Source: Plantibacter flavus | GTDB lineage: Bacteria > Actinomycetota > Actinomycetes > Actinomycetales > Microbacteriaceae | DNA: 64,000 nucleotides | NCBI RefSeq assembly: GCF_002024505.1 | Contig: NZ_CP019402.1 | Coordinates: 248,001-312,000, forward strand | Direction: 5' to 3' | Notes under the pieces: model-generated | The model's input: only the letters and a program-made list of their open reading frames with translations | Database searches by the model: none | Told to the model about the DNA's origin: nothing | Position numbers and translations under genes: made by a program | In this document: positions 1 through 24,020 of the stretch, in pieces | Layout: each line of letters opens with the position of its first letter | How positions within the stretch are numbered: position 1 is the stretch's first letter

Positions 1-710
1 CAGGACCTCGGCTTGCACGGTCACATCGAGCGCGGTGGTGGGCTCGTCGGCGATGATGATGTCCGGGTCCGTCGAGACGGCGCCGGCGATGAGCACACGC
101 TGCGCCATACCGCCCGAGACCTCGTGCGGGAATGCGGCGAAGGTGCGCTTGGGGTTCGGGATGCCGACCCGCTCGAGCAGGGCGAGTGCCTTGTCCGTCG
201 CCTCCTTCTTGCTGAGGCCGAGGGTGACGCGCAGGGGTTCGACGAGCTGGCTGCCGATCGTGAACGCCGGTCGAGGTTCGACATCGGCTCCTGCGGGATG
301 TAGCCGATGCGCTTGCCGCGGATGGCCGTGTACTCGCGCTCCCCGAGGGTGTCGAGCCGGGTGCCCTCGTAGCGGATCGTCCCGTCGGTGACCCGACCGC
401 CGCGCGGCAGGAGCCGAGGACACCCCACGCGTCTGGGTCTTGCCCGAGCCGGACTCGCCGATGAGGCGTGACCTCGCCCTTGCGGATGTCGAGGTCGACG
501 CCGTGGACGACCTCGGTCACGCGCCCGCCCTCCTGGTCGTAGCGACGCGGAGGTCGCGACGCTGAGGACGAGCTCCTCGGCGCGGACGGCGGCGCGGCGT
601 CGTCGTCGTGGCGGATGGGCGGGACACCGACGATCTCGTCCTCACTGATCCCGGAGGTGCTGATCGACTGCGTGACGATCGTGTTCGAGCCCGTCTTCGA
701 ACGTCGTCAC
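1..710 (-). pseudogene. Oligopeptide/dipeptide ABC transporter ATP-binding protein, partial and frameshifted
   Basis: Nucleotide-binding subunit of a peptide (Dpp/Opp) importer, cut by the window start. The reading frame must be stitched from several frames. Recognisable pieces in order are a Walker A region (GESGSGKT), the family motif YIPQEPMSNLD, a signature region (HEVSGGMAQRV) and a Walker B region (DIIIADEPTTALD). The likely start is GTG at 710, overlapping the stop of the upstream permease (TGA at 707-709), which is the usual operon arrangement. At least three single-base losses are needed to explain the frame changes, at about 690, 465 and 270. No motif is missing once frames are joined, so the gene may be intact in the organism and damaged only in this sequence. 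Confidence 0.8.
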
Positions 711-1589
711 GATCTTGCGACGGCGCGACGGACGGACACGGTGCGCTCGAGCTCGTCGCGCATCGCGTTGGCGAGCAGGGTGAGCGCGATGCAGGTGAGC
801 GCGATCGCGAGCGACGGCCAGACCATGAGGATCGGTGCCTTGTAGATGTTCGTGAAGCCGTCGTTGAGCATCGAGCCCAGGTCGGCACCGACAGGTCGCC
901 GAGACCGAGGAACTCGAGGCCGGACTGGATCGCGATGGCGATGCCCGCGATGATCGCCGACTGGATGATGATCGGTGCGCGGACGACGGAGAGGATGTGC
1001 CTGCCGATGATGCGCGGGTCGCTGAGTCCCGAGACCCGGCGGCGTCGACGTAGAGCTCCGAGCGGACGGCCGTGACCGCCGCGTAGACGAGCGGAAGTAG
1101 GAGGGCGAGAGCAGGATGCCGAAGATCGCCATCGAGATCCAGACGACGGGCCGAGGACGGCGCGGCGGCCAGCAGGACGACGATGCCGGGCAGCGCCATG
1201 ATGAGGCCGTGAACCACGAGGACACGGAGTCGAACCACCCCTGGTAGTACCCGGCGATCAGTCCGGCGACAACCCCGATGACGATCGCGACGACGAGGGC
1301 GAGAGTGCTGCGGCGACGCTGATCTGGGTGGCGGCGAGCAGGCGGGAGAACACGTCGCGCCCGGCGCTGTCCGCTCCGAGGAGGTGTCGGCACTCGGTGG
1401 CGCAAGGACCTGCTGCAGGGACGCGAGGTTCGGTCCTGCGGGGCGATGAGCGGTCCGAAGATCGCGACGACCCCGATGAGCACGAGGAACACGAGGGACG
1501 CGCGCCGATCGGGCGCTTGAGGAGCCGGCGCAGGAGGTTGACGCGGACCTGCGGGGTCGGACGGTGAGCGGGGTTTCGATGGCGGTCAT
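707..1589 (-). pseudogene. Peptide ABC transporter permease (DppC-type), multiply frameshifted
   Basis: Inner-membrane permease of the peptide importer. The start ATG (1587-1589) overlaps the stop of the preceding permease in a TCATGA junction. The expected DppC sequence can be followed through all three frames: LVLIGVVAIFGPLIAPQD, then GRDVFSRLLAATQISVAA, then VVAIVIGVVAGLIAGYYQG, then VVWISMAIFGILLSPSYF, and finally SMLNDGFTNIYKAPILMVW near the C-terminus. About ten frame changes occur in 880 bases, each explained by loss of one base, often in a run of C or G. That density is far above what gene decay without stop or missense damage would give, so sequence error is the simplest reading. Confidence 0.8.
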
Positions 1590-2526
1590 GACAGTCGCAC
1601 CTTCGGGTTGAGCGCAGCCTGCGCGAGGTCGATGAGCAGGTTGACGACGACGACGATGATGGCCGTCGCAATGACGACCCCCATGACGATGGGGATGTCG
1701 CCCTGGGTCGTGGCCTGCACGGCGAGTTGACCGATGCCCGGGAGGGCGAAGATCTGCTCGATGATGACGGCGCCGCCGAGGAGGCCGATGAACTGCACGG
1801 CGAGGACGGCGAGGGCGGGGCCGCCGGCGTTCCGCAGCACGTGCTTGTAGATGACGCGGCCCGTACCGAGCCCGCGGCTGCGGAGCGTCCGGACGTAGTC
1901 CTTCGACATCGCGTCGACGACGGAACCGCGCACCTGCTGCGAGACCGTCGCGATGGCGCCGATCGCGAGGGCGATGATCGGCAATGTCACCGAGGCGACC
2001 CAGCCGGAGAAGGACGTGGTGATCGGGATGTACCCGGTGGCTTTGAACAGGCGGAGGTTGATCGCGAAGGTGATGACGAGCACGAGCGCGATGAGGAAGC
2101 TGGGGATCGCGAAGCCGATGACGGAGATGAACTGGACGACGTTGTCGATCCATCCACCGCGACGGGCGGCGAGGACACCGAGGATGACGGACACGATCGC
2201 GGCGATGATGGTCGCGCCGAGCACGATCGAGAGGGTGACGGCGAGGCGGCCGGTGACGCCGAGGACACGAGCTGGCCGGTGAACCACGAGCGGCCGAGGT
2301 CGCCCTGGAAGGCGGAGGCGATCCAGTCGAGGTACTGCACCGGCAACGGGCGGTCGAGGCCGAGTTCGGCGGCCTTCTTCGCGACGGTCTCGGTGGTGGC
2401 GCTCTGGCCGAGGATCCGGCGGGCGATGTCGCCGCCGCCGAGGTAGAGGAGGGAGTACGCGATCACGGAGATCACGAAGATGAGGACGACGCCGGACACC
2501 AGGCGTCTGAGGATGAATCCGAGCAT
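1586..2526 (-). pseudogene. Peptide ABC transporter permease (DppB-type), one frameshift
   Basis: First permease of the peptide importer, about 313 residues when repaired. It starts MLGFILRRLVSGVVLIFV with a GGAG ribosome site seven bases upstream, and carries the family LGLDRPLPVQYLDW loop. The frame changes near 2262, after SWFTGQL, and resumes as VTGRLAVTLSIVLGA through the permease core (DYVRTLRSRGLG, the EAA-type loop, then HVLRNAGGPAL) to the stop at 1586. A single lost base restores the whole protein. It lies about 200 bases downstream of the binding-protein gene, separated by palindromic repeats. Confidence 0.85.
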
Positions 2527-2627
2527 GGGTCACTCCAGGAAGTGGGTGAGTGAGGGGTGTTGGGGCCGGCCCGCCCGAGCGCTGGACACTCTGGCGGGCC
2601 GGGGTCGATACGACACGTGCGACCGGT

Positions 2628-2726
2628 CGGTCCCGGTCCCGGAGCCTGTCGACGGCCGGCCTGCGACGGGTTCCGGTTCCGGTCCCTGAGCCTGTCGAAG
2701 GGCGGACCCGCGACAGGCTCAGGACC
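2628..2726. repeat. Cluster of CTTCGACAGGCTCAGGGACC-type palindromic repeats
   Basis: Three copies of a short repeat whose core is CCTGAGCCTGTCGAAGGG or its complement: about 2634-2652, 2681-2705 and 2711-2726, the last inverted relative to the others. They can pair into a stem. They lie between the binding-protein and permease genes of the peptide importer. The same element recurs at 7006, 12369, 15872, 17560, 49004, 50548 and 57300. Confidence 0.85.
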
Positions 2727-2732
2727 AGCGGA

Positions 2733-4251
2733 CTACTTCGGCTGGATGTCGTAGATGGACGGGTACGCGTTCGTCGGGATCATCTTGACGGTCGTGTTGG
2801 CGTCCGTCGCGAAGCTGCCCTGCACCCGGTAGAACGGGGCGAACCACGCCTGCTCGACGATGTACTGGTTCAGTTCCTTCGCGACCTTGCCCTGCGTCGC
2901 CTCATCGCCGTACTGGATCTGCTTGATGTACTCGTCGACCTTCGGGTCGTCGTACTTGAAGGGGTTGAAGACGGCGTTCGGGGCGATCATGAACTGGATG
3001 AGCTGCCAGTCCGGGTTCTGCTCCAGCGCCATGAAGGAGACCGGGAACTTCGGGGCCAGGAGGTCGGCGATGAAGTTGTTGCCCGGGTCCGTGTACTCGG
3101 CGGTGATCCCGACGTCGGCCAGCTGCTGCGAGATCAGCGTGTAGGTGGTGCGCCGAGCACCGTGGAGGACGGCATCGAGAGCGTCAGACCGTCGGCGTAA
3201 CCCGCCTCGGCGAGCAGCTCCTTGGCCTTCTCGGGGTCGTAGCCGTAGCGGTCGTCGAGCGACTTGTCGAAGGCGGGGAGTTCTCCGGGAAGACCTGACC
3301 CGTGACCGTGCCGTTGTCGTTCTGCAGCGCCTTGAGCAGAGCCGGGCGGTCGAACGCGTAGTTGATGGCCTGACGGACGCGGACGTCGGCGATCGCCGGG
3401 TTCATCGTGCCGGCGCGGTCGAGGAGCAGCATGCCCTGGAAGTCGAGCTCGTTGGCGTTGACGGTCCAGCCGGCGCCCTCGACCTCGGCGAGGTTGTCGT
3501 TGTTCGCGAGCTTGATGCCGTTGACCTCGCCCGACTTGACGGCGTTCAGGCCGGCGGTCGCGTCTTGGAGGACGTTGATGGTCAGCTTGTCGTAGTGCTG
3601 CCAGTCCTTGTTCCAGTAGTCGGGGTTCGCGGTGTAGCTGTAGCTCGTGCCGGTGACGGTCGCGGCCGTGTCGAGCACGTACGGTCCGGAGCCGACCGGG
3701 TTGGTGGCGAGGTCGGGGCTGTCGAACGACTCCGCGCTGGCGATCAGGCCGGGGTCGCGGGTGAGGTAGTTGAGCATGGCCGGGTCCGGCGCGCTCAGGG
3801 TGATGACCACGGTGGTGTCGTCGGGCGCCTCGACGGAGGCGACACCCGCGAAGTAGCCGGCGTCGGGGGAGGTGCCGGTCTTGAAGCGCTCGAGGTTCTG
3901 CTTGACGACGTCGGCGGTGAGCTTCGACTTGTCGGTGAAGGTGACGTCGTCGCGGATCTTGAGGGTCAGGACGGTGTTGTCGTCGTTGTACTCGTAGGAG
4001 GTCGCGAGCGACGGCACGATCTCGCCGTCGGCTGTGGCGACGAGCAGGGTGTCGAAGACGGCCTGGTAGAAGGGCGAGCGGTTGCCCCATTCGGAGCCGG
4101 CCGGGTCGAACGTGGTGGGGGGAGTGATCGCACCCAGGATCAGGGTGCCACCGGAGCCGCTGTCAGAGCCGGAGGTGCTACCGGAGCATCCGGTGAGCAC
4201 GAGTGCAGCAGCGGTGACCGCGACGGCTGCGGTCGTCTTCCATCGGAACAT
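2733..4251 (-). pseudogene. Peptide ABC transporter substrate-binding lipoprotein (SBP family 5), two frameshifts
   Basis: Extracellular solute-binding lipoprotein that delivers peptides to the permeases encoded downstream. It has a signal peptide with lipobox LTGC (lipidated Cys at residue 22) and family 5 features such as NPVGSGPYVLD and VRQAINYAFDRPALLKAL. The frame shifts near 3285, after GQVFPENSP, to AFDKSLDDRYGYDPEKAKEL, and again near 3150 before the C-terminal part ending YPSIYDIQPK. Repaired length is about 506 residues, close to the family norm. Its start is divergent from the TetR gene at 4433. Substrate is not evident from sequence; heme, nickel and antimicrobial-peptide importers share this fold. 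Confidence 0.85.
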
Positions 4252-4320
4252 CTTTGTCCATTCGCTGTGAGCAATCCCTCATCGGATCGCTGGTGATTGA
4301 GGACGCTAGCACGAAAGCCG

Positions 4321-4330
4321 AGTGGTCACT
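4321..4330. promoter_or_regulatory. Possible TetR operator in the divergent importer/regulator gap
   Basis: AGTGGTCACT has perfect 4-base arms around GT, within a looser GCTAG...CTAGC frame that starts near 4306. It lies in the 181-base gap between the divergent binding-protein and TetR genes, the usual place for an operator. The arms are short, so this is weak evidence. Confidence 0.25.
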
Positions 4331-4432
4331 AGCTTTTTGTTTTCGACCATGTCACAGTTGGATCACGACCAGGCCGCGGCGTTCGACGGGGAACGCGCTA
4401 TCGTGAAGCCGTCCGAAGGGGGAGGTCGTCCG

Positions 4433-5058
4433 ATGACATCGGTCAAGACCGGGAACAAGCCGCAGGGGAAGCCCCGCGGTGCATATGCGAAAACCGGTAT
4501 GAAGCGCGTCGCGATCCTCGACGCCGCGCTCGCCGTCTTCGCCAACGGGGATATCGCGCGGGTTCGCTTCGGGAGGTGGCCGCGCAGGTGGGGATGAGCG
4601 AGGCAGGACTCCTGCACCACTTCCCGAACAAGAGCGCGCTGCTCGCCGCCGTGCTGTCCCACCGCGACGACCTCTCGGCGACGCTCGTCCCGATGGACGG
4701 CGACGACCCGATCGAGACGCTCCGGGGGCTGGTCGCACTCGCCCGGTACAACGCTTCCGTGCCCGGCGTGGTCGCGCTCTACTGCACGCTCTCGGCGGAG
4801 GCGACCTCGCCCGACCACCCGGCGCACGACTACTTCGTCGAGCGCTACGAGGGCACGCGCGCGCGGCTCGAGCGCACCTTCGGGTTGCTCGTCTCCGCAG
4901 GACGCGTGCGGGCCGGCTTCCCCACCACCAGCGCGGCCTTCATGACCCTCGCGCTCATGGACGGCCTGCAGGTGCAGTGGCTGCTCGCGCCGGAGTCGGT
5001 CGACATGGCGGACGAGCTCCACGCCTTCCTGTCGGGGCTCCTCGGTACCGAGCTCTAG
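4433..5058 (+). pseudogene. TetR/AcrR family regulator, one frameshift
   Basis: DNA-binding repressor-type protein, about 208 residues when repaired. The start chosen is ATG 4433 because AAGGGGGAGG sits about seven bases upstream; an ATG at 4322 lacks a site. The helix-turn-helix is split. The first part ends AILDAALAVFANG, then a base is missing in a run of G near 4547, after which the frame continues GYRAGSLREVAAQVGMSEAGLLHHF, the TetR recognition helix, into a ligand-binding domain ending at 5058. It is divergent from the peptide importer and probably controls it. The deletion in a homopolymer suggests a sequence error. Confidence 0.8.
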
Positions 5059-5154
5059 GCGCCGAGCGGCCGGCGCGGCACCAGGAGGTCCGCCCCTGGG
5101 CAGGAGCCTTCGAGCGAGTGGGTCCTGCTGCGGCGCTGATCTCCTGCTGTCGCG

Positions 5155-6285: not shown

Positions 6286-6402
6286 TCCGACAACTGTAGG
6301 GCGCTCGCCGCGCCGGCGGCATCAGTCGGCGGACGGACCCCGGTCATCCTGCAGAGGGTGCCGAACGGCGGATCCCGCGCTCGATGCAGGCGATGATGGA
6401 GT

Positions 6403-7002: not shown

Positions 7003-7005
7003 CCG

Positions 7006-7093
7006 CCCTTCGACGGGCTCAGGGACCGGGACTCGGTCACTGACCCGAACCCCGGTCACTGAACCGAACTCCGGTCACTGAGCCTGTCGAAGT
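7006..7093. repeat. Palindromic repeat pair (CTTCGACGGGCTCAGGGACC type)
   Basis: One arm reads CCCTTCGACGGGCTCAGGGAC at 7006-7026 and the opposite arm CGGTCACTGAGCCTGTCGAAG at about 7072-7092. Short CCGGTCACTGA-like units lie in between. The arms are inverted, so the block could form a hairpin between the convergent oxidoreductase and GntR genes and might end transcription from both sides. Confidence 0.8.
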
Positions 7094-7094
7094 G

Positions 7095-7832
7095 CTACGC
7101 CGTGAGGGTGCGGTTGAGGCGCTCGGTCGCGGTGTCCATGTGGTGCTGCATCGCAGCCGTGGCCGCCGCGGGGTCGCCCGACATGATCGCCTCGTAGACG
7201 GCCTCGTGCTCCTCGAAGGCGCGCTGGGCGTCGACGTCCTCGTGGATGCCGCGCTCCACCCAGATGCGGAGGAGCGAGCGGATGCTCTGCAGGAGGTCGG
7301 AGAGCACGCGGTTCCCGGTGGCCGAGGCGAGCTCCAGGTGGAACTTCAGGTCGGCCTCGATGAACTTGGTGCGATTGGCGCCCGCCTCGCTCATGGCGGT
7401 GAGGTGGTTGCGCAGCCGGTTGCGTGCCATGTCGTCCATGCGCGTCGCGGCGAGGCCGGCAGCGAAGACCTCCAGCTGACCGCGCACCTCGATGAGTTCG
7501 CGGGTCCGCGGCTCGCCGAGCATGAGGCCCCAGCTGAGCGTCTCGGGGAGGAGTTCGGAGACGCTGCCGCGGAGGTAGGTGCCGCTGCCCGGGCGGACGT
7601 CGACGACGCCGAGGATCTCGAGCGCCGCCAGGGCCTCGCGGACGGCGGACCGCCCGATGCCGAGGGACGCGGCGAGCTGACGCTCCGGTGGGAGGCGGGT
7701 CCCCGGGGCGATCTCACCGCTCGTGAAGTGGTCGAGCAGGCGCTTCGCGACGGCGGAGACGGCGGATCCCACGGCGACCGGTCCGAGGCTGGACGAGATG
7801 TCGTCGGTCGGCCGATCCGGGAACGCAGGCAT
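7095..7832 (-). CDS. GntR family (FadR/FCD subfamily) regulator of the apiose/apionate locus
   Basis: Transcriptional repressor of about 245 residues. The N-terminal winged helix carries GTRLPPERQLAASLGIGRSAVREAL and GVVDVRPGSGTYL. The C-terminal all-helical FCD domain keeps likely metal and ligand residues (EADLKFHLELA, EEHEAVYEAIMSGD, MQHHMD). The start at 7832 (MPAFPDR) is preferred over 7874, which would place the regulator inside the divergent promoter. It faces the transporter operon, and a perfect TCAACC-GGTTGA palindrome lies in the gap, recurring upstream of the dehydrogenase at 14325. I infer it senses an apionate-pathway intermediate or erythrulose derivative. Confidence 0.88.
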   Translation of the reverse strand: MPAFPDRPTDDISSSLGPVAVGSAVSAVAKRLLDHFTSGEIAPGTRLPPERQLAASLGIGRSAVREALAALEILGVVDVRPGSGTYLRGSVSELLPETLSWGLMLGEPRTRELIEVRGQLEVFAAGLAATRMDDMARNRLRNHLTAMSEAGANRTKFIEADLKFHLELASATGNRVLSDLLQSIRSLLRIWVERGIHEDVDAQRAFEEHEAVYEAIMSGDPAAATAAMQHHMDTATERLNRTLTA

Positions 7833-7877
7833 GGGTTCACTGTATCGCGGCGGGTCGGCATGCCCGGAGCCCACTGC

Positions 7878-7906
7878 TTGAATTGGTCAACCGGTTGATG
7901 TATCGT
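7878..7906 (+). promoter_or_regulatory. Promoter with embedded GntR operator, apiose/apionate operon
   Basis: TTGAAT at 7878-7883 and TATCGT at 7901-7906 are separated by exactly 17 bases. The spacer contains the perfect 12-base palindrome TCAACCGGTTGA (7887-7898). A repressor bound there would block polymerase directly. The next gene begins 66 bases further on. Confidence 0.65.
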
Positions 7907-7972
7907 TCATTCCGGTCCGGCCCGGACCACGCCCTGCCCGCGGCATCGATGCCGCCCACCCGAGGAGTCATA

Positions 7973-9352
7973 GTGGACACCACCGCCCCCGCGGCCAACC
8001 CGGCTGTCGAGCGATCAGCCATCCGGAAGGTCTCGATCCGTCTCGTGCCGTTCGTGGCGCTGATGTTCTTCATCAACTACCTGGACCGCACCGCGATCGG
8101 CTTCGCCGCCCCCAACGGCATGAACGAGGACCTCGCGCTCTCCGCCGCCCAGTTCGGCTTCGCGTCCGGCGTCTTCTTCATCGGCTACATCCTGCTCGAG
8201 GTGCCCAGCAACCTCGCGCTCAACAAGTTCGGTGCCCGCCGCTGGCTCGCCCGCATCATGGTCACCTGGGGTATCGTCGCGGTCCTGTTCACCTGGGTCG
8301 CCAACTTCGAGCAGCTCGCGATCCTCCGCTTCGTGCTCGGTGTCGCCGAAGCCGGTTTCTTCCCCGGAGCGATCCTCTTCCTGAGCCTCTGGGTCCCGGC
8401 CAAGCACCGCAGCAAGATCCTCGCCCTCTTCTACCTGGCGCAGCCGCTCACCACCGTCATCGGCGCACCCCTCGCCGGGTGGCTCATCGGTCAGCACGGC
8501 GTGTTCTTCGGTCTCGAGGGCTGGCGCTTCATGTTCCTCGGCGTCGGACTCCCGGCCATCCTCATCGGTGTCATCGCCTGGTTCTACCTGAAGGACCGTC
8601 CGTCCGAGGCCAAGTGGCTCACCCCCGAGGAGCAGACCTGGCTCACCGCGGCTCTCGCACACGAGAAGGCCACCACGGAGCAGAAGCAGGGCCACGTCAG
8701 CCTCAAGCACGCGTTCACGAGCGGTCGCGTCTGGATGCTCGCGTTCATCTACTTCGGCTTCATCTACGGCCTCTACGCGCTCGGCTTCTTCCTCCCCACG
8801 ATCATCGAGGGCTTCCAGGAGACGTTCGGAACCGAGTTCAACGTCATGCAGAAGGGCCTCATCACGGCGATCCCGTACGTGCCGGCCGCCATCGCCCTGT
8901 ACTTCTGGTCTCGTGATGCGACGCGCCGTGGCCTGAAGACCTGGCACATCGTGATCCCCGCGATCGTCGGTGCCGTGAGCATCCCGCTCGCGCTCTTCGC
9001 CAACTCGCCCGCCCTCACCATCGCGGTCATCGCGGTCACCGCCATGGCGATCTTCGCCGCGCTGCCGAACTTCTGGACGCTGCCCACGCAGTTCCTCACC
9101 GGTGCGGCAGCGGCCGCTGGTATCGCGCTCATCAACACGGTCGGCAACCTCGCCGGGTTCTCGGCGCCGTACATCACCGGTGCCGTCGCGGACCTCACCA
9201 AGGTCGGCGACACCCCGCAGTACGTCGTCCCGATGTTCATCGTCGGTGGCTTCATGATGATCTCCGCCACGCTCATGGTGATCCTCTCGAAGCAGCGGAG
9301 CTCTCGCGAGCTGCGCGTCTCGCACGACGACCTCACGGGTAAGACCCGATGA
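7973..9352 (+). CDS. MFS transporter, anion:cation symporter type (probable apionate or sugar-acid uptake)
   Basis: Integral membrane transporter of 459 residues with 12 predicted helices. FFINYLDRTAIGFAAP at the first helix and EVPSNLALNKFGARRWLARIM in the loop between helices 2 and 3 are typical of the anion:cation symporter family that carries hexuronates, glucarate, phthalate and similar acids. GTG at 7973 is chosen because GAGGAG lies seven bases upstream; an in-frame GTG at 7883 would fall within the promoter. Its stop overlaps the kinase start by four bases. A transporter of this acid-specific family fits import of D-apionate, though free apiose or erythrulose cannot be excluded. Confidence 0.85.
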   Translation: MDTTAPAANPAVERSAIRKVSIRLVPFVALMFFINYLDRTAIGFAAPNGMNEDLALSAAQFGFASGVFFIGYILLEVPSNLALNKFGARRWLARIMVTWGIVAVLFTWVANFEQLAILRFVLGVAEAGFFPGAILFLSLWVPAKHRSKILALFYLAQPLTTVIGAPLAGWLIGQHGVFFGLEGWRFMFLGVGLPAILIGVIAWFYLKDRPSEAKWLTPEEQTWLTAALAHEKATTEQKQGHVSLKHAFTSGRVWMLAFIYFGFIYGLYALGFFLPTIIEGFQETFGTEFNVMQKGLITAIPYVPAAIALYFWSRDATRRGLKTWHIVIPAIVGAVSIPLALFANSPALTIAVIAVTAMAIFAALPNFWTLPTQFLTGAAAAAGIALINTVGNLAGFSAPYITGAVADLTKVGDTPQYVVPMFIVGGFMMISATLMVILSKQRSSRELRVSHDDLTGKTR

Positions 9353-11133
9353 CGCGCCTCTTCAACGACCCGGCGGACTTCGCCGACGAGATGATCGACG
9401 GCTTCGTCGCCGCGAACCGTGACCAGGTCCGGCGCGTGACCGGTGGTGTCGTCCGGAGCACCCGGACGCCCGAGGGCACGGTCGCGCTCGTTATCGGCGG
9501 TGGCTCCGGCCACTACCCGGCGTTCGGCGGCATCGTCGGCCAGGGCCTCGCGCACGGTGCGGCGATGGGCAACCTGTTCGCGTCGCCGTCCGCCCATCAG
9601 GTCGAGTCGGTCGCGAAGGCGGCGCAGCGCGGGGGCGGCGTCCTCCTCAGCTACGGCAACTACGCGGGCGACGTGCTCCACTTCACCCAGGCGCAGGACG
9701 CGCTGAATGCAGCGGGCATCCCCACCCGGAGCGTCGCCGTCACCGACGACATCTCGAGCGCGCCCGTCGCTGAGAAGCACAAGCGTCGCGGTATCGCGGG
9801 CGACCTCACCGTCTTCAAGTCGGCCGCCGCCGCGGCCGAGGCGGGCTACGACCTCGACGAGGTCGTCCGCGTCGCCACCCACGCGAACGAGCGCACCCGG
9901 TCCTTCGGCGTCGCGTTCAGCGGCTGCACCCTGCCGGGCGCGACCGAGCCGCTGTTCACCGTGCCCGAGGGGCGCATGGCGGTCGGCATGGGCATCCACG
10001 GCGAGCCCGGCATCGACGAGACCGACGTGCCGACGGCCGATGAACTCGCCACCCTGCTCGTCTCCTCGCTGCTCGCGGAACTGCCCGAGGGCGTCTCCGA
10101 GGCCACCGGCGCTCGCGTCGGCGTCATCCTCAACGGCCTCGGCTCGGTGAAGTACGAGGAACTGTTCGTCGTCTACCGTGCGGTCGCCGCGCAGCTCGAG
10201 GCCGCAGGGGTGGAGATCGTCGACCCCGAGGTCGGCGAGCTCGTCACGAGCTTCGACATGGCCGGCGTCTCGCTCACGCTCTTCTGGTTGGACGAGGAGC
10301 TCGAGGGCTTCTGGGCTGCCGGTGCCGACACCCCCGCCTACCGCAAGGGCGTCGTCGCAGCGGCCGAGCAGCTCGACCCCTCGGAGCTCGTCGCCGAGAC
10401 GGCTGCCGAGATCCCCGCCGCCTCCGACGCGTCCCGGGCCGCCGCCGCGGTCGTGGTCGAGGCCCTCGACGCGCTCGTCCAGGTCATCGACACGAACGTC
10501 GAGGAGCTCGGCCGGATCGACGCCGTCGCGGGTGACGGCGACCACGGCATCGGCATGCAGCGCGGTGCTCGTGCCGCCGTCACCGCCGCACACGCCGCCG
10601 CCGATGCCGGGGCCGGTGCCCACACCGTCCTGCACCTGGCCGGCGACGCCTGGGCGGACCGCGCCGGCGGCACGTCCGGTGCCCTGTGGGGACTCGCGCT
10701 CCGCTCGGTCGGAACCGCCCTCGGTGACGAGGTCGCACCCGACCGCACCGACGTCGCGACCGGCGTGCAGGCCGCGGTCGACGGCATCATGTCGTTCGGC
10801 AAGGCCGAGGTCGGACAGAAGACGATGGTCGACGCGCTCGTGCCGTTCACCACCACGTTGCGTGCAGCCGTCGCCGACGGTTCCGACCTCGTCTCCGCTT
10901 GGACGACCGCCGCTGCGGCTGCCTCGACCGCTGCCGCTGAGACGGCGGACCTCCTGCCGAAGATGGGCCGCGCCCGTCCGCACGCCGAGAAGAGCCTCGG
11001 TACCGTCGACGCCGGTGCCTACTCGTTCGGCCTGATCGTCACGGCGATCGTCCCCGTCCTCGAGCGCGCCACCGGCACCACTGCACCGGACGGCTCCACC
11101 AGCACCACCACCAACGAAGGAGTACACGCATGA
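9349..11133 (+). CDS. lerK: Dihydroxyacetone kinase family protein, probable L-erythrulose kinase
   Basis: ATP-dependent ketose kinase of 594 residues with both DAK domains in one chain. DAK1 (about 1-330) has the [15 protein letters not shown] loop and the His in GMGIHGEPG (residue 217) that forms the covalent hemiaminal with the substrate carbonyl. DAK2 (about 370-575) has the nucleotide/Mg loop GDGDHGIGM (from residue 395). In characterised actinobacterial tetritol and apiose pathways this family phosphorylates L-erythrulose to L-erythrulose 1-phosphate, and it always sits with a TIM-like and an RpiB-like isomerase, as here. Overlaps both neighbours by ATGA. D-erythrulose or dihydroxyacetone are the alternatives. 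Confidence 0.85.
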
Positions 11134-11600
11134 CCGATCAGCTGCGCATCGTCATCGGCTCGGATGACGCCGGGTTCGACTACAAGGAGATCGTCAAGCG
11201 CGACCTCGAGCAGCACGACGGCGTCGCCTCGCTCGTCGACGTGGGCGTGGACGCCGACGGCCACACCGCCTACCCGCGGGTCGCCATCGCCGCTGCCGAG
11301 CTCGTCGCGTCCGGCCAGGCCGACCGCGCGCTCCTCTTCTGCGGCACCGGCCTGGGCGTCGCGATCGCCGCCAACAAGGTCGCCGGCATCCGCGCCGTCA
11401 CGGCACACGACAGCTTCTCCGTCGAGCGCGGTGTCCTCAGCAACAACGCGCAGGTCCTGACGATGGGCCAGCGCGTCATCGGCATCGAGCTCGCCCGCCG
11501 CCTCGTCCGCGAGTGGCTCACCTACCGCTTCGACGAGACCAGCGCGAGCGCCGAGAAGGTCGCCGTCATCGGTGAGTACGAGGCGACGGGCTCCTGCTGA
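11130..11600 (+). CDS. derI: RpiB/LacAB family isomerase, probable D-erythrulose 4-phosphate isomerase
   Basis: Aldose-ketose phosphate isomerase of 156 residues, RpiB fold. It shows the N-terminal [11 protein letters not shown], the active-site loop [17 protein letters not shown] with the catalytic Cys, and the phosphate-binding stretch [19 protein letters not shown]. Next to a DAK-type kinase and a TIM homolog, the characterised role is conversion of D-erythrulose 4-phosphate to D-erythrose 4-phosphate, which enters central metabolism. Ribose 5-phosphate isomerase activity remains possible. Its stop overlaps the next start by one base (TGATG). Confidence 0.85.
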
Positions 11601-12427
11601 TGACCGCCTCCCCGTCGACCGCGAGCACGTCGACCGCGCCCCGCGTGGTCGGTGTGAGTCTGAAGATGTACTTCGGCCATGCGCAGACCCTCGAGTGGAT
11701 CGAGCAGGTGGGCGCCTTGGCCCGTCGGCACGAGGCCGTGGTCGATGGTCGCGTGCGACTGTTCGTCATCCCCGGCTACCTCGCGGTCGCGCCGTCGGTG
11801 GCGGCCCTCGCCGGGACGGGCGTGCTGGTCGGAGCACAGGACCTCGCGAGCGCGGACCGTGGCGCGTTCACCGGTGAGGTCGGCGGCCCCGAGCTCGCCG
11901 AGGTCGGCGTCGCCGTGGTCGAGGTCGGCCACGCGGAGCGTCGTTCGCTCTTCGGCGAGACCGACGAGGTCGTCGCCGAGAAGACCGCCGCGGCCCTCCG
12001 CAACGGACTCTCACCGGTCCTCTGCATCGGCGAGGTCGAGCGCACGACGCCCGAGGCGGCTGCGACGGAGTGCGTGCGCCAGCTGGACTCCGCGCTCGCC
12101 GATGCCGTGGCTGGGCCGGTGATCGTCGCGTACGAGCCCGTGTGGGCGATCGGTGCGGCTGAACCCGCGTCTGCCGAGTACGTGCGAGCTGTCGGCGCGA
12201 TCCTGAAGCGATCGATCGCCGAGCGCGCCGACCGGGTCGGTAGCTCCGTCATCTACGGCGGCAGTGCGGGCCCCGGTCTGCTGACCGCGCTCGGTGACGA
12301 CGTCGACGGTGTGTTCCTCGGACGCTTCGCCCACGACGTCGCGGCGCTCGAGGCCGTGCTCGACGAGGCCCTTCGACAGGCTCAGGATGGCACCCTTCGG
12401 CAGGCTCAGGGACCGAGGACAGCATGA
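11600..12427 (+). CDS. lerI: Triosephosphate isomerase family protein, probable L-erythrulose 1-phosphate isomerase
   Basis: TIM-barrel isomerase of 275 residues. The catalytic residues of the family are present: Lys in SLKMYF, His in VEVGHAERR and Glu in IVAYEPVWAIG, with the phosphate-binding YGGSAGP near the end. A variant N-terminal motif (SLKMYF rather than GNWKMN) separates it from glycolytic TIM and matches the erythrulose-phosphate group. It would convert L-erythrulose 1-phosphate to D-erythrulose 4-phosphate, between LerK and DerI. The last 19 residues (LRQAQDGTLRQAQGPRTA) are encoded by two copies of a dispersed DNA repeat and are probably a recent extension. Confidence 0.85.
   Translation: MTASPSTASTSTAPRVVGVSLKMYFGHAQTLEWIEQVGALARRHEAVVDGRVRLFVIPGYLAVAPSVAALAGTGVLVGAQDLASADRGAFTGEVGGPELAEVGVAVVEVGHAERRSLFGETDEVVAEKTAAALRNGLSPVLCIGEVERTTPEAAATECVRQLDSALADAVAGPVIVAYEPVWAIGAAEPASAEYVRAVGAILKRSIAERADRVGSSVIYGGSAGPGLLTALGDDVDGVFLGRFAHDVAALEAVLDEALRQAQDGTLRQAQGPRTA
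12369..12415. repeat. Two direct copies of the palindromic repeat inside the 3' end of lerI
   Basis: CCCTTCGACAGGCTCAGG (12369-12386) and CCCTTCGGCAGGCTCAGGGACCG (12393-12415) lie in the coding sequence and give the tail LRQAQDGTLRQAQGPR. Repeat spread into a tolerant C-terminus is the likely origin. Confidence 0.9.
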
Positions 12428-13221
12428 TCGGCTTCGGCACCTACACCTTCTTCTGGGAGGGCTCCGAGCTCGCTCCCGAGCGCTTGAGCGTCATCGGCAT
12501 GATCGAGCGCACGGCCGACGCCGGCGTCGAGCTCTTCCAGATCTGCGACGACGCCCGCATCGAGGCGATGTCCGACGATGAACTGCGCCGGATCGCCGAG
12601 GTCGCCCGCGAGCGCGGGGTCGCCCTCGAACTCGGGACGAAGGGGATCGCGGTCGCGCACCTCGAACGCTTCCTCCACATCGCCACCGTGCTGGGTGCGA
12701 AGCTCCTGCGCAGCATGGTCACCTCCGGCGACGACCGGCCGTCACACACGGACGCCGTCGATCGTCTCCGCGCGGTGCTCCCGGCGTTCGAGGCGGCCGG
12801 CGTGACGATCGCACTCGAGACCTACGAGCAGCTGTCGTCGCAGGAGCTCGTCGACCTCGTGACCGCCGTCGACCACCCGAACCTCGGCATCTGCCTCGAC
12901 CCCGCCAACACCGTCGCCCGGCTCGAGCACCCGAGTGACGTCATCGAGCGCACCGCTCCGTACGTCCGCAACATCCACGTCAAGGACTTCGCGTTCACCC
13001 GCCGGGGCGGCTGGGTCGGCTTCACCCTCGAGGGTGCCCCGCTCGGCACCGGCCTGCTCGACTACCCAGCCCTCACCGCCGTCGTCCGACCGGACGAGCG
13101 CGGTGTCAACCAGATCATCGAACACTGGCTCCCGCTCGGCGACTCCATCACGGAGACGATCGAACTCGAGCGCACGTGGACCGCACACAACCTGCAGTAC
13201 CTGAGAGAAGGAAGATCATGA
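12424..13221 (+). CDS. oiaX: Xylose isomerase-like TIM-barrel protein, probable 3-oxo-isoapionate decarboxylase
   Basis: Metal-dependent TIM-barrel enzyme of 265 residues (sugar phosphate isomerase/epimerase superfamily). Four metal ligands can be picked out: Glu in IALETYEQ, Asp in GICLDPAN, His in NIHVKDF and Glu in QIIEHW. In known apiose catabolism a member of this fold, OiaX, decarboxylates 3-oxo-isoapionate to L-erythrulose. That activity would link the upstream oxidoisomerase with the erythrulose kinase in this operon. The assignment rests on context plus fold; plain epimerase activity is the alternative. Overlaps its neighbours by four bases on both sides. Confidence 0.7.
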   Translation: MIGFGTYTFFWEGSELAPERLSVIGMIERTADAGVELFQICDDARIEAMSDDELRRIAEVARERGVALELGTKGIAVAHLERFLHIATVLGAKLLRSMVTSGDDRPSHTDAVDRLRAVLPAFEAAGVTIALETYEQLSSQELVDLVTAVDHPNLGICLDPANTVARLEHPSDVIERTAPYVRNIHVKDFAFTRRGGWVGFTLEGAPLGTGLLDYPALTAVVRPDERGVNQIIEHWLPLGDSITETIELERTWTAHNLQYLREGRS

Positions 13222-14090
13222 CCGACACCACCACCGTCGCGGACCAGCTCACCATCGCCGTCATCGGCGCGGGCGGCAAGATGGGCATGCGCGTCTCCAA
13301 CAACCTCGTGAAGACCAACCACACCGTCTTCTACAGCGAGGTGTCGCCCGCCGGCCAGGAGCGTGTGACCGAGACCGGCCGCGAGCTCACCGAGACCGAC
13401 GCGGCCGTCACCGACGCCGACGTCGTCATCCTCGCCGTCCCGGACCTCGCCCTGAAGGCCGTGTCCGCCGGCGTCGTCCCGCTCATGAAGTCGGGCGCCG
13501 TGCTCCTCACGCTCGACCCGGCCGCCGCGTACGCGGGTCTGCTGACGCGTCGCGACGACGTCATCCAGGCCGTCACGCACCCCTGCCACCCGTCGGTCTT
13601 CGTCGAGCGCCACACGCCCGAGGAGTACGCGGACACCTTCGGTGGCATCGCCGCCCTCCAGGACGCCATCGCGGCGATCGAGTCCGACGACGCTGAGAAG
13701 CAGGCGCAGGTCGAGGCCGTCGTCCGGGCGATCTTCGCCCCCGTCGGTGAGGTCCACTGGGTCACGGTCAAGCAGCTCGCGCAGCTCGAGCCGACCCTCG
13801 TGGAGACGATCGCCTGCATGATCGGCGCGCTCCTCAAGGAGTCGCTCGACGAGGCCGTCAACACCATGGGTGTGCCGGAGCCGGCCGCCCGCGCGATCCT
13901 CCTCGGCCACACGCAGGTCGCCCTCGCGAACTCGCTCAAGGGCGACAACCCGTTCTCCGACGCGTGCCTCATCGCGATGGACTACGGCCGCAGCGCGATC
14001 ATCAAGGACGACTGGAAGAAGGTCTTCCAGGACGACGAGCTCGACAAGAACCTCGCCGCCATGCTCCACCTCGACAAGATCGAGCGGTAG
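13218..14090 (+). CDS. apnO: 6-phosphogluconate dehydrogenase-like protein, probable D-apionate oxidoisomerase
   Basis: NAD(P)-dependent oxidoreductase of 290 residues. It has an N-terminal Rossmann motif (IAVIGAGGKMGMRVSNNL), the variable loop VVILAVPDLALK and a C-terminal helical domain like that of phosphogluconate dehydrogenases (HPCHPSVF, QLEPTLVETIACMIG). Start at 13218 follows an AGAAGGAAG ribosome site; it overlaps oiaX by four bases. ApnO of known apiose pathways belongs to this type and oxidises and rearranges D-apionate to 3-oxo-isoapionate. The company of OiaX-, LerK-, LerI- and DerI-like genes supports that role. It is the last gene of the first transcription unit, ending just before a 17-base inverted repeat. 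Confidence 0.7.
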   Translation: MTDTTTVADQLTIAVIGAGGKMGMRVSNNLVKTNHTVFYSEVSPAGQERVTETGRELTETDAAVTDADVVILAVPDLALKAVSAGVVPLMKSGAVLLTLDPAAAYAGLLTRRDDVIQAVTHPCHPSVFVERHTPEEYADTFGGIAALQDAIAAIESDDAEKQAQVEAVVRAIFAPVGEVHWVTVKQLAQLEPTLVETIACMIGALLKESLDEAVNTMGVPEPAARAILLGHTQVALANSLKGDNPFSDACLIAMDYGRSAIIKDDWKKVFQDDELDKNLAAMLHLDKIER

Positions 14091-14105
14091 CCCGCTTCCC
14101 CAACT

Positions 14106-14192
14106 GTTCGCAATTCAGGACGTGCCCGGCGCGTCGGCCCGCTCCCTCCCCCGATCCGGGTCGGCGCGCCGCGGCCGTCCTGAATTGCGAAC
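14106..14192. repeat. Long inverted repeat, 17-base perfect arms
   Basis: GTTCGCAATTCAGGACG (14106-14122) is perfectly inverted at 14176-14192, with a 53-base GC-rich loop containing further complementarity (GGCGCG near 14129 and GCGCGCC near 14164). It lies 15 bases after apnO and before the next operator. It could act as an intercistronic terminator or be a mobile palindrome. Confidence 0.75.
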
Positions 14193-14203
14193 GTCACATG
14201 CGG

Positions 14204-14214
14204 TCAACCGGTTG
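14204..14214 (+). promoter_or_regulatory. Second GntR operator, upstream of the SDR gene
   Basis: GGTCAACCGGTTG repeats 11 of 12 bases of the palindrome found in the transporter promoter (TCAACCGGTTGA). The only visible copies are at these two start regions, which ties the dehydrogenase-lactonase unit to the same regulator. TAGGCT about six bases downstream could be a -10 element. Confidence 0.6.
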
Positions 14215-14324
14215 TGCCGGATAGGCTGCAGACGACCCGATGTCGCACCCGCGACAGCCATTGCGACACCCGAGACGACACCCGCGACACCACCCCCGCA
14301 ACACCGCACGAGAGACAGGCGACG

Positions 14325-15077
14325 ATGACTGGACGACTTGCAGGAAAGACCGCGCTCGTGACGGGTGCCGGATCGGGGATCGGACGTTCGGTCGCCGAGC
14401 GGTTCGCTCGTGAGGATGCCGCCGTCGTCTTCTCCGACCGCGACATCCAGGCCGCCCGTGATGCGGCGGCACCCTTCCCGACCGCTATCGCCGTGCGACT
14501 CGACATCGCCGACGAAGCGAGCGTCGAGGCCGCCTTCGCGGTCATGGACGCCGCCGGCAAGACCCCGGACGTCGTCGTCGCGAACGCCGGCGTACAGCTC
14601 TTCGGCCAGGACGCGAAGATCGCCGACCTCGACCTCGAGGTCTGGCAGCGCACGGTCGACATCAACCTCACCGGCACCTTCCTCACGACCAAGCACGCCG
14701 TCCGCGCCATGCTCGGCCGCGGCGGCTCGATCATCCTCACGGGCAGCCCGACCGGGCTCAACGGCGAGGGCGCCGACTTCACGGCATACAGCTCCACGAA
14801 GGCCGGGATCCACGGCCTCGGCCGGACCGTCGCCGCGGCCTACGCCGATCAGGGCATCCGCGTGAACACCGTCGTCCCCGGCTACACGGAGACCCCGCTC
14901 GTCACCGCGATCTCCGGCGACCCGGAGTCGCGTGCCGCCATCGTCGGGCGCATCCCGCTCGGTCGTCCCGGCCAGGCCTCGGACGTCGAGGGCATCATGG
15001 TGTACCTCGCCAGCGACGAGTCGAGCTTCGCCACCGGAGCGACCTTCCGGGTCGACGGCGGCATGACGAGCCTCTGA
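14325..15077 (+). CDS. SDR family NAD(P)-dependent dehydrogenase, probable sugar (apiose) 1-dehydrogenase
   Basis: Classical short-chain dehydrogenase of 250 residues: cofactor motif TGAGSGIG, structural NAG, the catalytic Ser (ILTGSP) and YSSTKAG with the Tyr and Lys, and the GATFRVDGG C-terminus. It is followed after ten bases by the lactonase-like gene and carries its own copy of the GntR operator. Known apiose dehydrogenases (ApsD) are Gfo/Idh/MocA proteins; none is present in this window, so the SDR may fill that step by producing D-apionolactone. Oxidation of a tetritol to erythrulose, as SDR threitol dehydrogenases do, is the main alternative. ATG 14325 is chosen by homology of the N-terminus; the ribosome site is weak. 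Confidence 0.8.
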   Translation: MTGRLAGKTALVTGAGSGIGRSVAERFAREDAAVVFSDRDIQAARDAAAPFPTAIAVRLDIADEASVEAAFAVMDAAGKTPDVVVANAGVQLFGQDAKIADLDLEVWQRTVDINLTGTFLTTKHAVRAMLGRGGSIILTGSPTGLNGEGADFTAYSSTKAGIHGLGRTVAAAYADQGIRVNTVVPGYTETPLVTAISGDPESRAAIVGRIPLGRPGQASDVEGIMVYLASDESSFATGATFRVDGGMTSL

Positions 15078-15087
15078 GCCGACGATC

Positions 15088-17019
15088 ATGACCTCGCGTT
15101 CGGGAACCGCCTTCCGCGTCGCATCCGACCTCCTGCTCGACCGCGAGCGTGACGCCCTCGCCGTCGGCCGGGGGCCCTGGTCGGCCTCGCTCCGCGGCTC
15201 GGAGCTCGACGACATCGCCTTCGACGGCGAGCCCGTGCTGCGCAGCATCCGCTTCGTCGTCCGCGACCAGGACTGGAAGACACTGCCCGTCATCGTCGAC
15301 GCGGTCGACCGCACGACGAGCGGCCTGGCCCTGCGCGGCCGGGTCGGCGACGATGGCGAGACCGTCGCCTGGTCCCTGTCGGTCGACCTCGGAGCGTCGA
15401 CACTGCGGGTCGCCGTCCGGGCCGAGGTGACCGCCGCGTTCCGGCGCGCGCGCATCGGTCTCATCGTGCTGCAGTCACCGGCGCTCGCCGGCACCGAGCT
15501 CGTCGTCGGCCACCCGGAGGGGTCCACGACGACCGTGCGCCTCCCGGAGCACGTCGCTCCGCATCAGCCGGCGATCCGCATCGGGTCCCTCGCCTGGACC
15601 GGCGACCGCGTCGCGACCACGGTCCGCTTCAGCGGTGACGTCTTCGAGATGGAGGACCAGCGCAACTGGACCGACGCCTCGTTCAAGACCTATTCGACGC
15701 CCCTCTCGCTGCCGTTCCCCGTCGCACTGGCGGTCGGTGACGTCGTGGAGCAGTCCGTCGAGGTCAGCTGTGCACGGGTCGGCGCTGCCGAGCCAGCCGA
15801 CGCCCCACTGGCGACGCCGCTCGCCGTCACCGTCGTGTCCGAGACAGAGCTCGCGGGGCAACGAGAGGACCCGGTCCCTGAGCCTGTCGAAGGGCGGATC
15901 GGCGCACCACTCGACGGCACCATCCCCACGATCTGGACCTCGGTGTCGAGTGACGCCGACGGCGGCCGCGCGGGCGCCGAGATCCCGGACACGATCACCG
16001 GGATCCTCGTGGAGATCGACCCGACGAACCAGGACTGGCCGGCCATCCTCGATCGCGCCGTGCGCCAGGCCGGCGGCGGGCCCCTCGACCTCCGACTCGT
16101 GCTCGGGACGGGCGAGGAGGCCGAGCCGGTGCTGCGGCGGCTGCGTGACGCGGCCGTGCCCGTCGTGCGCGTCGGGGCGTTCCATCGCCGGACCCACCTC
16201 TCGGAGGTCACGCTGTTGACCGCGCTCGGCGAGGTCCTGCGAACCCTGTGGGCCGAGGTCCCGACGCCGCAGCCCGAGCTCGTCGGCGGCACGCGCGCGC
16301 ACTTCACGGAGCTCAACCGCAACCACGCGCGTCTCGAGCGCTGGGTGGGCCCGGTGGCCTTCAGCATCACGCCGTTCATGCACGACCGTGGCGGGCACCA
16401 GCTCGTCGAATCGCTCGGCATGCAGGCGGTCGTCGTGGCGGACGCCGTGAGGATCGCCGATGGCCGCCCGCTGCACGTCGGGCCGGTCACGCTCGGCGCC
16501 CGCTACAACGCGGTCGCGACCACGCGGGCCAGCGCCGGTGACTCCCGCGACTCGGAACTCCGCGCGGGCTTCGGTGCCGAGCACGTACCCGGCGCGACGG
16601 ATTGTCGGCAGTCGGCGGAGGCGCTCGGTGCCTGGGTCGTCGGCAGTGTCGCGGCGCTGGCCGTCTCCGGGGTCGAATCGTTGTCGTACTTCGAGGCGAC
16701 CGGACCGCGTGGGCTCGTCGCGGCCGACGGGACGCTCACGGCTGCCGGCCGGGTGCTCGGGTGGATCGCCGAGCTCAGCGGACGGCAGCGCGTCGCGGTC
16801 GAGATCGGCGGGGTGTCGCTCGGTGCCGGGTCGTCCGTCTCGCCGGCAGGTGTGACCGCGATCGCCGCCGTCGACGCCGCAGGCGAGACCGTCGTGATCC
16901 TCGGCAACCTCGGCGAGACACCGGTCCGGGTCGTCTTGACCGGTGCATCCGAGCCGCACACCGCGGAACTCGCCGCGGGTGCGGTCGCCCGGGTCGTGAT
17001 CGCCCGTTCGGGTTCGTAG
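15088..17019 (+). CDS. apnL: ApnL-like protein, probable D-apionolactone lactonase
   Basis: Cytoplasmic protein of 643 residues, no signal peptide. The N-terminal third is beta-rich with the striking stretch FSGDVFEMEDQRNWTDAS (about residues 180-200). The rest looks like an alpha/beta barrel domain, ending in a small beta domain. It does not match a common lactonase fold. I assign it to the ApnL family (hydrolysis of D-apionolactone to D-apionate) on length, this motif as I remember the family, and the surrounding apionate genes; the family call is the least certain of the locus. Residues about 259-270 (EDPVPEPVEGR) come from an inserted copy of the dispersed repeat, in frame, so the protein tolerates a loop there. 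Confidence 0.6.
   Translation: MTSRSGTAFRVASDLLLDRERDALAVGRGPWSASLRGSELDDIAFDGEPVLRSIRFVVRDQDWKTLPVIVDAVDRTTSGLALRGRVGDDGETVAWSLSVDLGASTLRVAVRAEVTAAFRRARIGLIVLQSPALAGTELVVGHPEGSTTTVRLPEHVAPHQPAIRIGSLAWTGDRVATTVRFSGDVFEMEDQRNWTDASFKTYSTPLSLPFPVALAVGDVVEQSVEVSCARVGAAEPADAPLATPLAVTVVSETELAGQREDPVPEPVEGRIGAPLDGTIPTIWTSVSSDADGGRAGAEIPDTITGILVEIDPTNQDWPAILDRAVRQAGGGPLDLRLVLGTGEEAEPVLRRLRDAAVPVVRVGAFHRRTHLSEVTLLTALGEVLRTLWAEVPTPQPELVGGTRAHFTELNRNHARLERWVGPVAFSITPFMHDRGGHQLVESLGMQAVVVADAVRIADGRPLHVGPVTLGARYNAVATTRASAGDSRDSELRAGFGAEHVPGATDCRQSAEALGAWVVGSVAALAVSGVESLSYFEATGPRGLVAADGTLTAAGRVLGWIAELSGRQRVAVEIGGVSLGAGSSVSPAGVTAIAAVDAAGETVVILGNLGETPVRVVLTGASEPHTAELAAGAVARVVIARSGS
15872..15895. repeat. Palindromic repeat copy within the apnL coding sequence
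   Basis: CGGTCCCTGAGCCTGTCGAA followed by GGGC inserts PVPEPVEG into the middle of the lactonase-like protein without breaking the frame. It is the only copy in the interior of a gene here. Confidence 0.85.
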
Positions 17020-24011: not shown

Positions 24012-24020
24012 GCCCTCAGC

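Follow-up and report, generated by a model that had tools for sequence, protein, structure and literature searches.

Apiose is an unusual branched sugar of plant cell walls and plant glycosides. Oxidative pathways for D-apiose were reportedly described by Carter et al. in 2018, comprising an ApnL-like lactonase, a PGDH_C oxidoisomerase and enzymes leading from L-erythrulose to erythrose 4-phosphate. The oxidoisomerase, ApnO, presumably belongs to the PGDH_C family, an assumption supported by the place of a PGDH_C gene in the annotated apiose locus of a Rhizobium bangladeshense plasmid; OiaC is the name of the TIM-barrel type of 3-oxo-isoapionate decarboxylase, and LerK, LerI and DerI are the names used in the tetritol pathways of Mycobacterium smegmatis. 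In this study we analyzed a block of nine genes at positions 7095-17019 of a 64,000-nucleotide stretch of the 4.21-Mb genome of Plantibacter flavus (C1:248001-312000, contig NZ_CP019402.1), which as a whole is referred to as the window. Sequence comparisons indicate that the block, with its palindromic site, is built of two modules and probably serves the breakdown of D-apiose and D-apionate. Its genes and the two sites predicted as operators are as follows:

7095..7874, minus strand: GntR/FCD regulator, predicted repressor (PF00392 65.5 bits, PF07729 98 bits; likely start ATG at 7832)
7883..7902, no strand: predicted operator 1, TTGGTCAACCGGTTGATGTA, where the regulator and MFS genes diverge, with an exact TCAACCGGTTGA at 7887-7898
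7973..9352, plus strand: MFS transporter (PF07690 172 bits; frame opens at 7883, likely start GTG at 7973 after GAGGAG)
9349..11133, plus strand: single-chain Dak1-Dak2 kinase (DAK), candidate L-erythrulose kinase of the LerK type (NF011049 748 bits, cut-off 492)
11130..11600, plus strand: RpiB-like isomerase, DerI candidate (LacAB_rpiB; TIGR02133 RPI_actino 203.1 bits, cut-off 168.2)
11600..12427, plus strand: TIM-like isomerase, LerI candidate (PF00121 178 bits)
12424..13221, plus strand: AP_endonuc_2 TIM barrel, candidate 3-oxo-isoapionate decarboxylase of the OiaC type (PF01261 86.6 bits)
13218..14090, plus strand: PGDH_C oxidoreductase, candidate D-apionate oxidoisomerase, ApnO (PF16896 190.7 bits)
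14200..14219, no strand: predicted operator 2, GCGGTCAACCGGTTGTGCCG, in the gap between the PGDH_C and SDR genes, 105 bp before the SDR start, with TCAACCGGTTGT at 14204-14215 (1 mismatch)
14325..15077, plus strand: SDR, predicted NAD-dependent D-apiose 1-dehydrogenase (PF13561 200.7 bits; frame from 14316, ATG at 14325)
15088..17019, plus strand: divergent ApnL-like protein, candidate D-apionolactone hydrolase (NF049900 E 1.9e-52, 178.6 bits, cut-off 750)

All nine open reading frames (ORFs) that an earlier note on this DNA had placed at 7095-17019 were found there on the strands it gave, and its account of the block, its families and its overlaps was borne out by the ORF list and by Pfam and NCBIfam. 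Between the junction of the MFS and DAK genes (9349) and that of the TIM barrel and PGDH_C genes (13221) successive genes share 4 bp, or 1 bp in the case of RpiB and TIM; the spacing is 234 bp between the PGDH_C and SDR genes and 10 bp between the SDR and ApnL genes. The nearest named relative found, Plantibacter flavus VKM Ac-2504, has all nine genes in unchanged order at 90-100% identity, and this shared order, together with the co-location of the genes in many genera, argues for a gene block beyond chance. The analysis yielded protein families, conserved catalytic residues, co-occurrence, gene order and the conservation of an operator-like site.

From these we infer the substrates and reactions, the use of nicotinamide adenine dinucleotide (NAD), the direction of regulation, the identity of the regulator acting at the site and the origin of the sugar from glycosides. 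In the proposed pathway, the SDR would use NAD to convert D-apiose to D-apionolactone, which the ApnL-like enzyme would open, and the MFS transporter would bring external D-apionate into the cell. The PGDH_C enzyme, acting as an ApnO, would convert D-apionate to 3-oxo-isoapionate by oxidation with migration of the hydroxymethyl group, and the TIM barrel, as a metal-dependent decarboxylase of the OiaC type, would form L-erythrulose from it. The DAK, TIM-like and RpiB-like enzymes (LerK, LerI and DerI types) would then lead from L-erythrulose to D-erythrose 4-phosphate, and the GntR/FCD protein would repress both modules via the palindrome TTGGTCAACCGGTTGACCAA. The earlier claim of an apiose or apionate locus with a candidate for each step finds good support in the families, catalytic residues, co-occurrence and gene order, but the label OiaX for the TIM barrel had to be dropped and the ApnL and DerI candidates fall below the cut-offs of their curated models. 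The pathway itself is known; new here are its SDR-ApnL front end, its division into modules and its predicted operator.

Within the block, the MFS, DAK, RpiB, TIM, TIM barrel and PGDH_C genes make up an acid module, to which an SDR-ApnL front end is added. Among 248 genomes of the order, in which co-occurrence counts are inflated by relatedness, ApnL relatives were identified in 25 (23 of them at E <1e-20). At E <=1e-20 PGDH_C is present in 30 genomes, every one of which is among the 31 with the TIM barrel. Neither ApnL nor SDR was found in eight of the 248 that do carry PGDH_C and the TIM barrel. Of the 23 genomes with a strong ApnL match, one is without PGDH_C and four are without the SDR, and the two with weak matches (G013 and G206) have neither PGDH_C nor SDR. 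The two acid-only loci L150 and L151, from actinobacterial genomes, carry the regulator and MFS-DAK-RpiB-TIM-TIM barrel-PGDH_C, and end where SDR-ApnL starts in the window; the genes of another such locus, L152, are ordered differently. The MFS protein, whose best model is the D-galactonate type TIGR00893 (276.8 bits, below the cut-off of 395), shares 61-66% identity with its counterparts in L150 and in the Pantoea and Erwinia cassettes that hold the acid module only. Conversely, in the examined flanks of loci from Agreia, Glaciihabitans, Brachybacterium, Frigoribacterium, Rathayibacter and Arthrobacter, SDR-ApnL is separate from the acid module. That the acid and sugar modules are separable fits an MFS transporter that imports the acid itself, which would be D-apionate.

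The PGDH_C protein is 58% identical to that of Pantoea sp. At-9b and 43% to the protein of the R. bangladeshense apiose locus, its best PDB match is 5t57 (205 bits), and H121, P122, H124 and P125, among others, are common to 58 sequences, the Rhizobium and Pantoea proteins included. Across 48 TIM-barrel sequences the putative metal ligands E132, D159, H185 and E233 are each at least 97% conserved; the same holds for the catalytic K22, H111 and E179 among 36 sequences of the TIM-like isomerase. Among the PDB matches of the latter, 11ef, an L-erythrulose-1-phosphate isomerase, comes second at 125.6 bits, behind 3s6d at 162.6 bits. Of the candidates proposed for LerK and DerI, the kinase passes NF011049, a family wider than LerK, but the RpiB-like protein does not reach the rhizobial DerI model.

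The TIM barrel had been proposed as OiaX in the earlier note, a label that is ruled out, since the annotated OiaX of the R. bangladeshense locus, a 3-oxo-isoapionate-4-phosphate decarboxylase, is a RuBisCO-like protein (RuBisCO_large, 248.7 bits) and none of the nine block proteins is of this type; the TIM barrel is therefore better called OiaC. No OiaK kinase was found in the block either. A scan of named genomes with the ApnL alignment, of which the best 80 of at least 582 relatives were kept, gave 67 actinobacterial loci and 13 that are other or unassigned, on which all counts out of 80, 67 and 13 rest; OiaX relatives occur in 1/67 and 4/13 of these. PMC6302742 has RuBisCO-like proteins acting on 3-oxo-isoapionate-4-phosphate, and PMC11747546 describes a D-apiose cluster with a kinase and a 4-phosphate decarboxylase and reports growth on D-apiose. 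In Microbacterium rhizomatis (L109, 19.7-21.5 kb) genes for a RuBisCO-like (41%) and an OiaK-like (46%) protein lie near a locus of the actinobacterial type, so that perhaps both routes are found in one place.

The ApnL candidate of the earlier note shares invariant residues with the R. bangladeshense protein, which passes NF049900 at 1052 bits, but itself scores far lower. The model is evidently narrow, since the protein of R. daejeonense gets 502 bits. Identity is 25% to the former protein and 30% to the latter. Across 48 relatives 27 columns are invariant, including F186, E187, E189-W194, D196, S198, K200 and Y202. An AlphaFold2 model (mean predicted local distance difference test score 92.1, predicted template modelling score 0.92) suggests a beta-sandwich, a beta/alpha barrel and a second beta-sandwich, with the near-invariant E408 and E536 following or ending the apparent barrel strands 4 and 7. 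No PDB chain was matched by sequence or profile, and the ApnL profile matched neither the apiosidase-like protein of this genome nor a GH42-like protein; as such, kinship with the clan GH-A glycosidases is a guess from the model. The ApnL gene is labelled as a hypothetical protein in three plasmid loci, and the position of the window protein under the present curated cut-off bears on annotation.

The SDR, to which the earlier note gave no role, is probably the gene of the block that tells most. It is likely the apiose dehydrogenase, given that among the 248 genomes it is found only with ApnL and that it takes the place of a Gfo/Idh/MocA gene there. Using thresholds chosen after the result tables had been seen (57% identity for the SDR, 30% for Gfo/Idh/MocA and, for the palindrome discussed below, a site within 350 bp with <=3 mismatches), an SDR was found within 1.5 kb of ApnL in 55/67 actinobacterial loci (50 on the same strand) and in 0/13 others, and a relative of three alphaproteobacterial Gfo/Idh/MocA seeds anywhere in the locus in 0/67 and 7/13, respectively. 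The ApsD-type Gfo/Idh/MocA gene was not found beside ApnL in the window block, where the SDR occupies its place; in three loci, two of them from Rhizobium and one from the Rhodobacteraceae, the former shares 4 bp with ApnL. At E <=1e-80 the SDR is present in 19 of the 25 ApnL-positive genomes of the order, these 19 falling in 7 of 86 genera, and in 0/223 others. N114, S141, Y155, K159 and D38 are kept in at least 97% of 56 SDR sequences; D38 lies after strand 2, where an acidic residue is the usual sign of NAD use. The mutual exclusion of SDR and Gfo/Idh/MocA is strong but not complete, because the Gfo/Idh/MocA search used three seeds and the fetched flanks and because 12/67 actinobacterial loci have no adjacent SDR (among the SDR-less loci, the stretch of L131 ends at 3.7 kb and L108 has only a short 57% match). 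Weaker Gfo/Idh/MocA matches, of 28 and 23%, occur in two actinobacterial loci, both with the SDR.

That the SDR fold gives no substrate and that some actinobacterial ApnL loci have no SDR nearby leave room for a different role, such as the reduction of a side product, while an enzyme encoded elsewhere would oxidise the sugar. Several loci of Microbacterium and Ruania in which an extended SDR lies close to ApnL point the same way, and the Gfo/Idh/MocA search covered the flanks of the loci. We regard this as possible although unlikely, given that the SDR sits where Gfo/Idh/MocA sits in three alphaproteobacterial loci, that the two were never found together in any of the 80 loci at the thresholds above, that the acid-only loci lack both SDR and ApnL, and that two genomes (G031 and G047) do have the SDR, though unlinked. 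The extended SDR (L053:5657-6544 and relatives) is accompanied by a LacI gene; as a stand-in dehydrogenase where the SDR is missing it is unsupported, since it occurs with the SDR too. Genes for nucleoside-hydrolase-like proteins (IU_nuc_hydro) were also seen near ApnL in three lineages (L127:12889-13992, L048:19166-19999 and L059:8243-9160), the one in L127 with an operator-like site at its start. We do not claim the SDR as unreported. Among the papers listed, a literature search found no report of apiose use by Actinobacteria, and the Ler and Der names were sought in PMC12780249 and not found there.

The palindrome TTGGTCAACCGGTTGACCAA tends to precede both modules, and the aligned sites have the consensus nTGGnnAACCGGTTGACCAA. 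The core AACCGGTT lies upstream of the FCD regulator in 36/43 cases (42 loci and the window), compared with 0.018 per 320 bp across the 80 loci. Counted within 350 bp in the 67 actinobacterial loci, a site is near 35/42 regulator genes, 13/567 control ORFs (some being transporter or LacI genes), 21/38 front-end units that do not closely follow the PGDH_C gene (17/33 loci) and 0/34 that closely follow it. A genome-wide search of 30 of the 33 genomes with ApnL or the acid module, a set that leaves out the genome of the window and the two with weak ApnL matches and that overlaps in part with the genomes from which the motif was derived, gave 32 sites in 22/30 genomes for the 20-bp consensus at <=3 mismatches, as against 10 for the reversed control; 23 of the 32 (in 20 genomes) are within 10 kb of a module and nine are elsewhere. 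In Arthrobacter sp. Soil736 a site lies ahead of genes for an ABC transporter, an apiosidase-like protein, ApnL and the SDR, all in a row on one strand; locus L120 is similar.

It is doubtful that the palindrome is instead the operator of a LacI-type regulator. Cores of the AACCGGTT kind are common in LacI operators, and in L120 and L127 a LacI gene adjoins a site, but the sites upstream of 35/42 FCD regulator genes speak for the GntR/FCD protein, and the three loci without ApnL (L150-L152) retain both the FCD regulator and the site. Two further AACCGGTT-type palindromes, at C1:205394-205407 and C1:205461-205474, are 67 bp apart and about 15 kb from glycosidase genes, and look LacI-like by eye.

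Several observations weigh against the interpretation of the block as an apiose and apionate locus under the GntR/FCD protein. Among the enzymes, the ApnL-like protein reaches only 178.6 of the 750 bits set by NF049900, has no Pfam match and is only 25% identical to the Rhizobium ApnL that passes the model; the RpiB-like protein misses the DerI model NF051858 (144.3 bits, cut-off 240), the best PDB match of the TIM-like isomerase is named only as a putative TIM, and for ApnO and OiaC none of the curated models gave a hit, so that these two assignments rest on family and context. In their distribution, one genome (G183) has ApnL without PGDH_C, TIM barrel or SDR, and L085, L125, L129 and L133 have ApnL by itself, the other eight genes being absent from the flanks examined, in addition to the 12 loci without an adjacent SDR. 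The site is missing at 7/42 regulator genes, at 17/38 front-end units and, at 3 mismatches, in 8/30 module genomes, and the glycosidase cluster of this genome has none. In the genome itself a 14-bp version with <=2 mismatches occurs at 69 places (17 for the reversed control) and 14/100 shuffles of the window gave at least 3 matches at two mismatches; operator 2, which by itself is weak, thus rests on its position and on its identical letters in the P. flavus VKM Ac-2504 locus, not on rarity. Lastly, the apiosidase-like protein, of the DUF5060/DUF5605 type, matches PF13204 only weakly (44.8 bits).

The low identity of ApnL to the Rhizobium protein, the 43% identity of PGDH_C to that locus and the lack of relationship between the SDR and ApsD could also be explained if the block degraded some other branched or linear aldonate or lactone by the same chemistry of oxidoisomerase, decarboxylase and tetrulose phosphorylation. 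This is rather improbable in view of the invariant ApnL columns and the PGDH_C residues shared by 58 sequences, the joint occurrence of ApnL, PGDH_C and enzymes of the tetrulose-phosphate type both here and in the annotated apiose locus, and the apiosidase-like and rhamnosidase genes linked to the block. It is very improbable that the block is for the use of a tetritol (erythritol or threitol) or of erythrulose, with the SDR as tetritol dehydrogenase, although DAK-RpiB-TIM and an SDR are also found in tetritol pathways and a second such cassette with GntR, MFS and SDR genes nearby is found in this genome, because ApnL, PGDH_C and the TIM barrel, as lactonase, oxidoisomerase and decarboxylase, have no place in such a route, the SDR (E <=1e-80) was not found without ApnL among the 248 genomes, and the second cassette is the better tetritol candidate. 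That cassette, near C1:3576422, has DAK, RpiB and TIM genes whose products are 62, 78 and 64% identical to those of the block, respectively, and perhaps serves tetritols; its presence means that the trio does not by itself name the substrate. It lies at 8371-11396 of C1:3568001-3588000, the GntR gene being there and the MFS and SDR genes a few kb on.

Returning to apiose as the substrate, linked apiosidase-like and rhamnosidase genes suggest plant glycosides as the source of the sugar. Upstream of the locus are genes for GH20, apiosidase-like, GH78 rhamnosidase, GH3 and Dpp-type transporter proteins (L008:12262-19998 and L009:2-7222), the apiosidase-like gene at C1:222564-224306, whose product has as its best PDB match 4n0r, a putative glycoside hydrolase, being about 23 kb from ApnL when an assembly repeat described below is discounted. 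PF13204 was identified in 31/248 genomes, 13/25 with ApnL and 18/223 without (one-sided Fisher p = 2.8e-7; by genus 5/7 versus 9/79, p = 0.001), and in ten of the 13 the gene is on the ApnL contig, 1-55 kb away. Among the 80 named loci, apiosidase-like relatives occur in 16, GH78 relatives in 11, TetR relatives in 10 and relatives of the solute-binding protein near ApnL in 3 (L077, L102 and L113). We lean towards the view that Actinobacteria evolved their own entry to apiose, with an SDR dehydrogenase and a divergent lactonase set on a shared apionate cassette, under a single regulon of FCD protein and 20-bp operator that in some Arthrobacter would include glycoside import and an apiosidase-like hydrolase. 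If so, apiose use is predicted across many plant-associated Microbacteriaceae and Arthrobacter-like bacteria, a new and testable group of sugar dehydrogenases tracks one lactonase, and the short operator may guide the way to more genes of the regulon, apiose-releasing glycosidases among them.

The left part of the window is affected by a repeat. C1:223452-240556 recurs as C1:240557-257590, a tandem near-duplicate of 17.1 kb (99.1% identity, 12 mismatches and 115 gap openings), and window positions 1-9590 belong to its second copy, which ends inside the DAK gene. The part that lies in the window has 35 one-base gaps, 21 of them in runs of 3 or more, and no mismatch. Given that gaps far outnumber mismatches, the repeat is probably an untrimmed overlap of unpolished contigs, and a true biological duplication was judged less likely. 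Such an overlap explains a broken Dak1 fragment at C1:240372, the apiosidase-like letters directly after it and a split solute-binding-protein gene (window 2733-4251); the DAK ORF of the window is unbroken. Transporter frames are broken at window 1586-4251. Two features of this part, the first of them possibly part of a linked glycoside-use region, are:

1..4251, minus strand: Dpp-type ABC transporter genes, frames broken in the window copy (SBP_bac_5 and BPD_transp_1 in the other copy of the repeat, L009)
4576..5058, plus strand: TetR regulator adjoining the Dpp-type transporter, ORF without its 5' part (TetR_N in the L009 copy)

On the other side of the block, window positions 22956-27819 hold, by eye, three similar proteins with glycine-rich starts and a hydantoinase-like gene in a row.

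Set beside the pathways reported by Carter et al., with which it shares the lactonase, the oxidoisomerase and the enzymes from L-erythrulose onward, the block has an SDR in place of Gfo/Idh/MocA, an MFS in place of an ABC transporter for the acid and a divergent ApnL, and it lacks OiaK and a RuBisCO-like protein. The tetritol pathways of M. smegmatis likewise have the kinase and the two isomerases, but are entered by tetritol dehydrogenases and contain no lactonase, oxidoisomerase or decarboxylase. The R. bangladeshense plasmid locus (NZ_CP071619.1) resembles the block in its ApnL, PGDH_C, TIM, RpiB and dihydroxyacetone-kinase proteins, and differs in having the annotated OiaX with its RuBisCO_large fold, a four-carbon-acid-sugar kinase, a ribose-type ABC transporter, a two-subunit DhaK/DhaL and a Gfo/Idh/MocA gene that overlaps ApnL. 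The plasmids of Pantoea sp. At-9b and Erwinia sp. E602 have neither ApnL nor an SDR of the block type in the stretches examined; their RpiB gene is divergent, their regulator is of a sugar-binding kind and the palindrome is not beside the cassette, whereas the order MFS-DAK-TIM-TIM barrel-PGDH_C is the same as in the block, at 46-66% identity.

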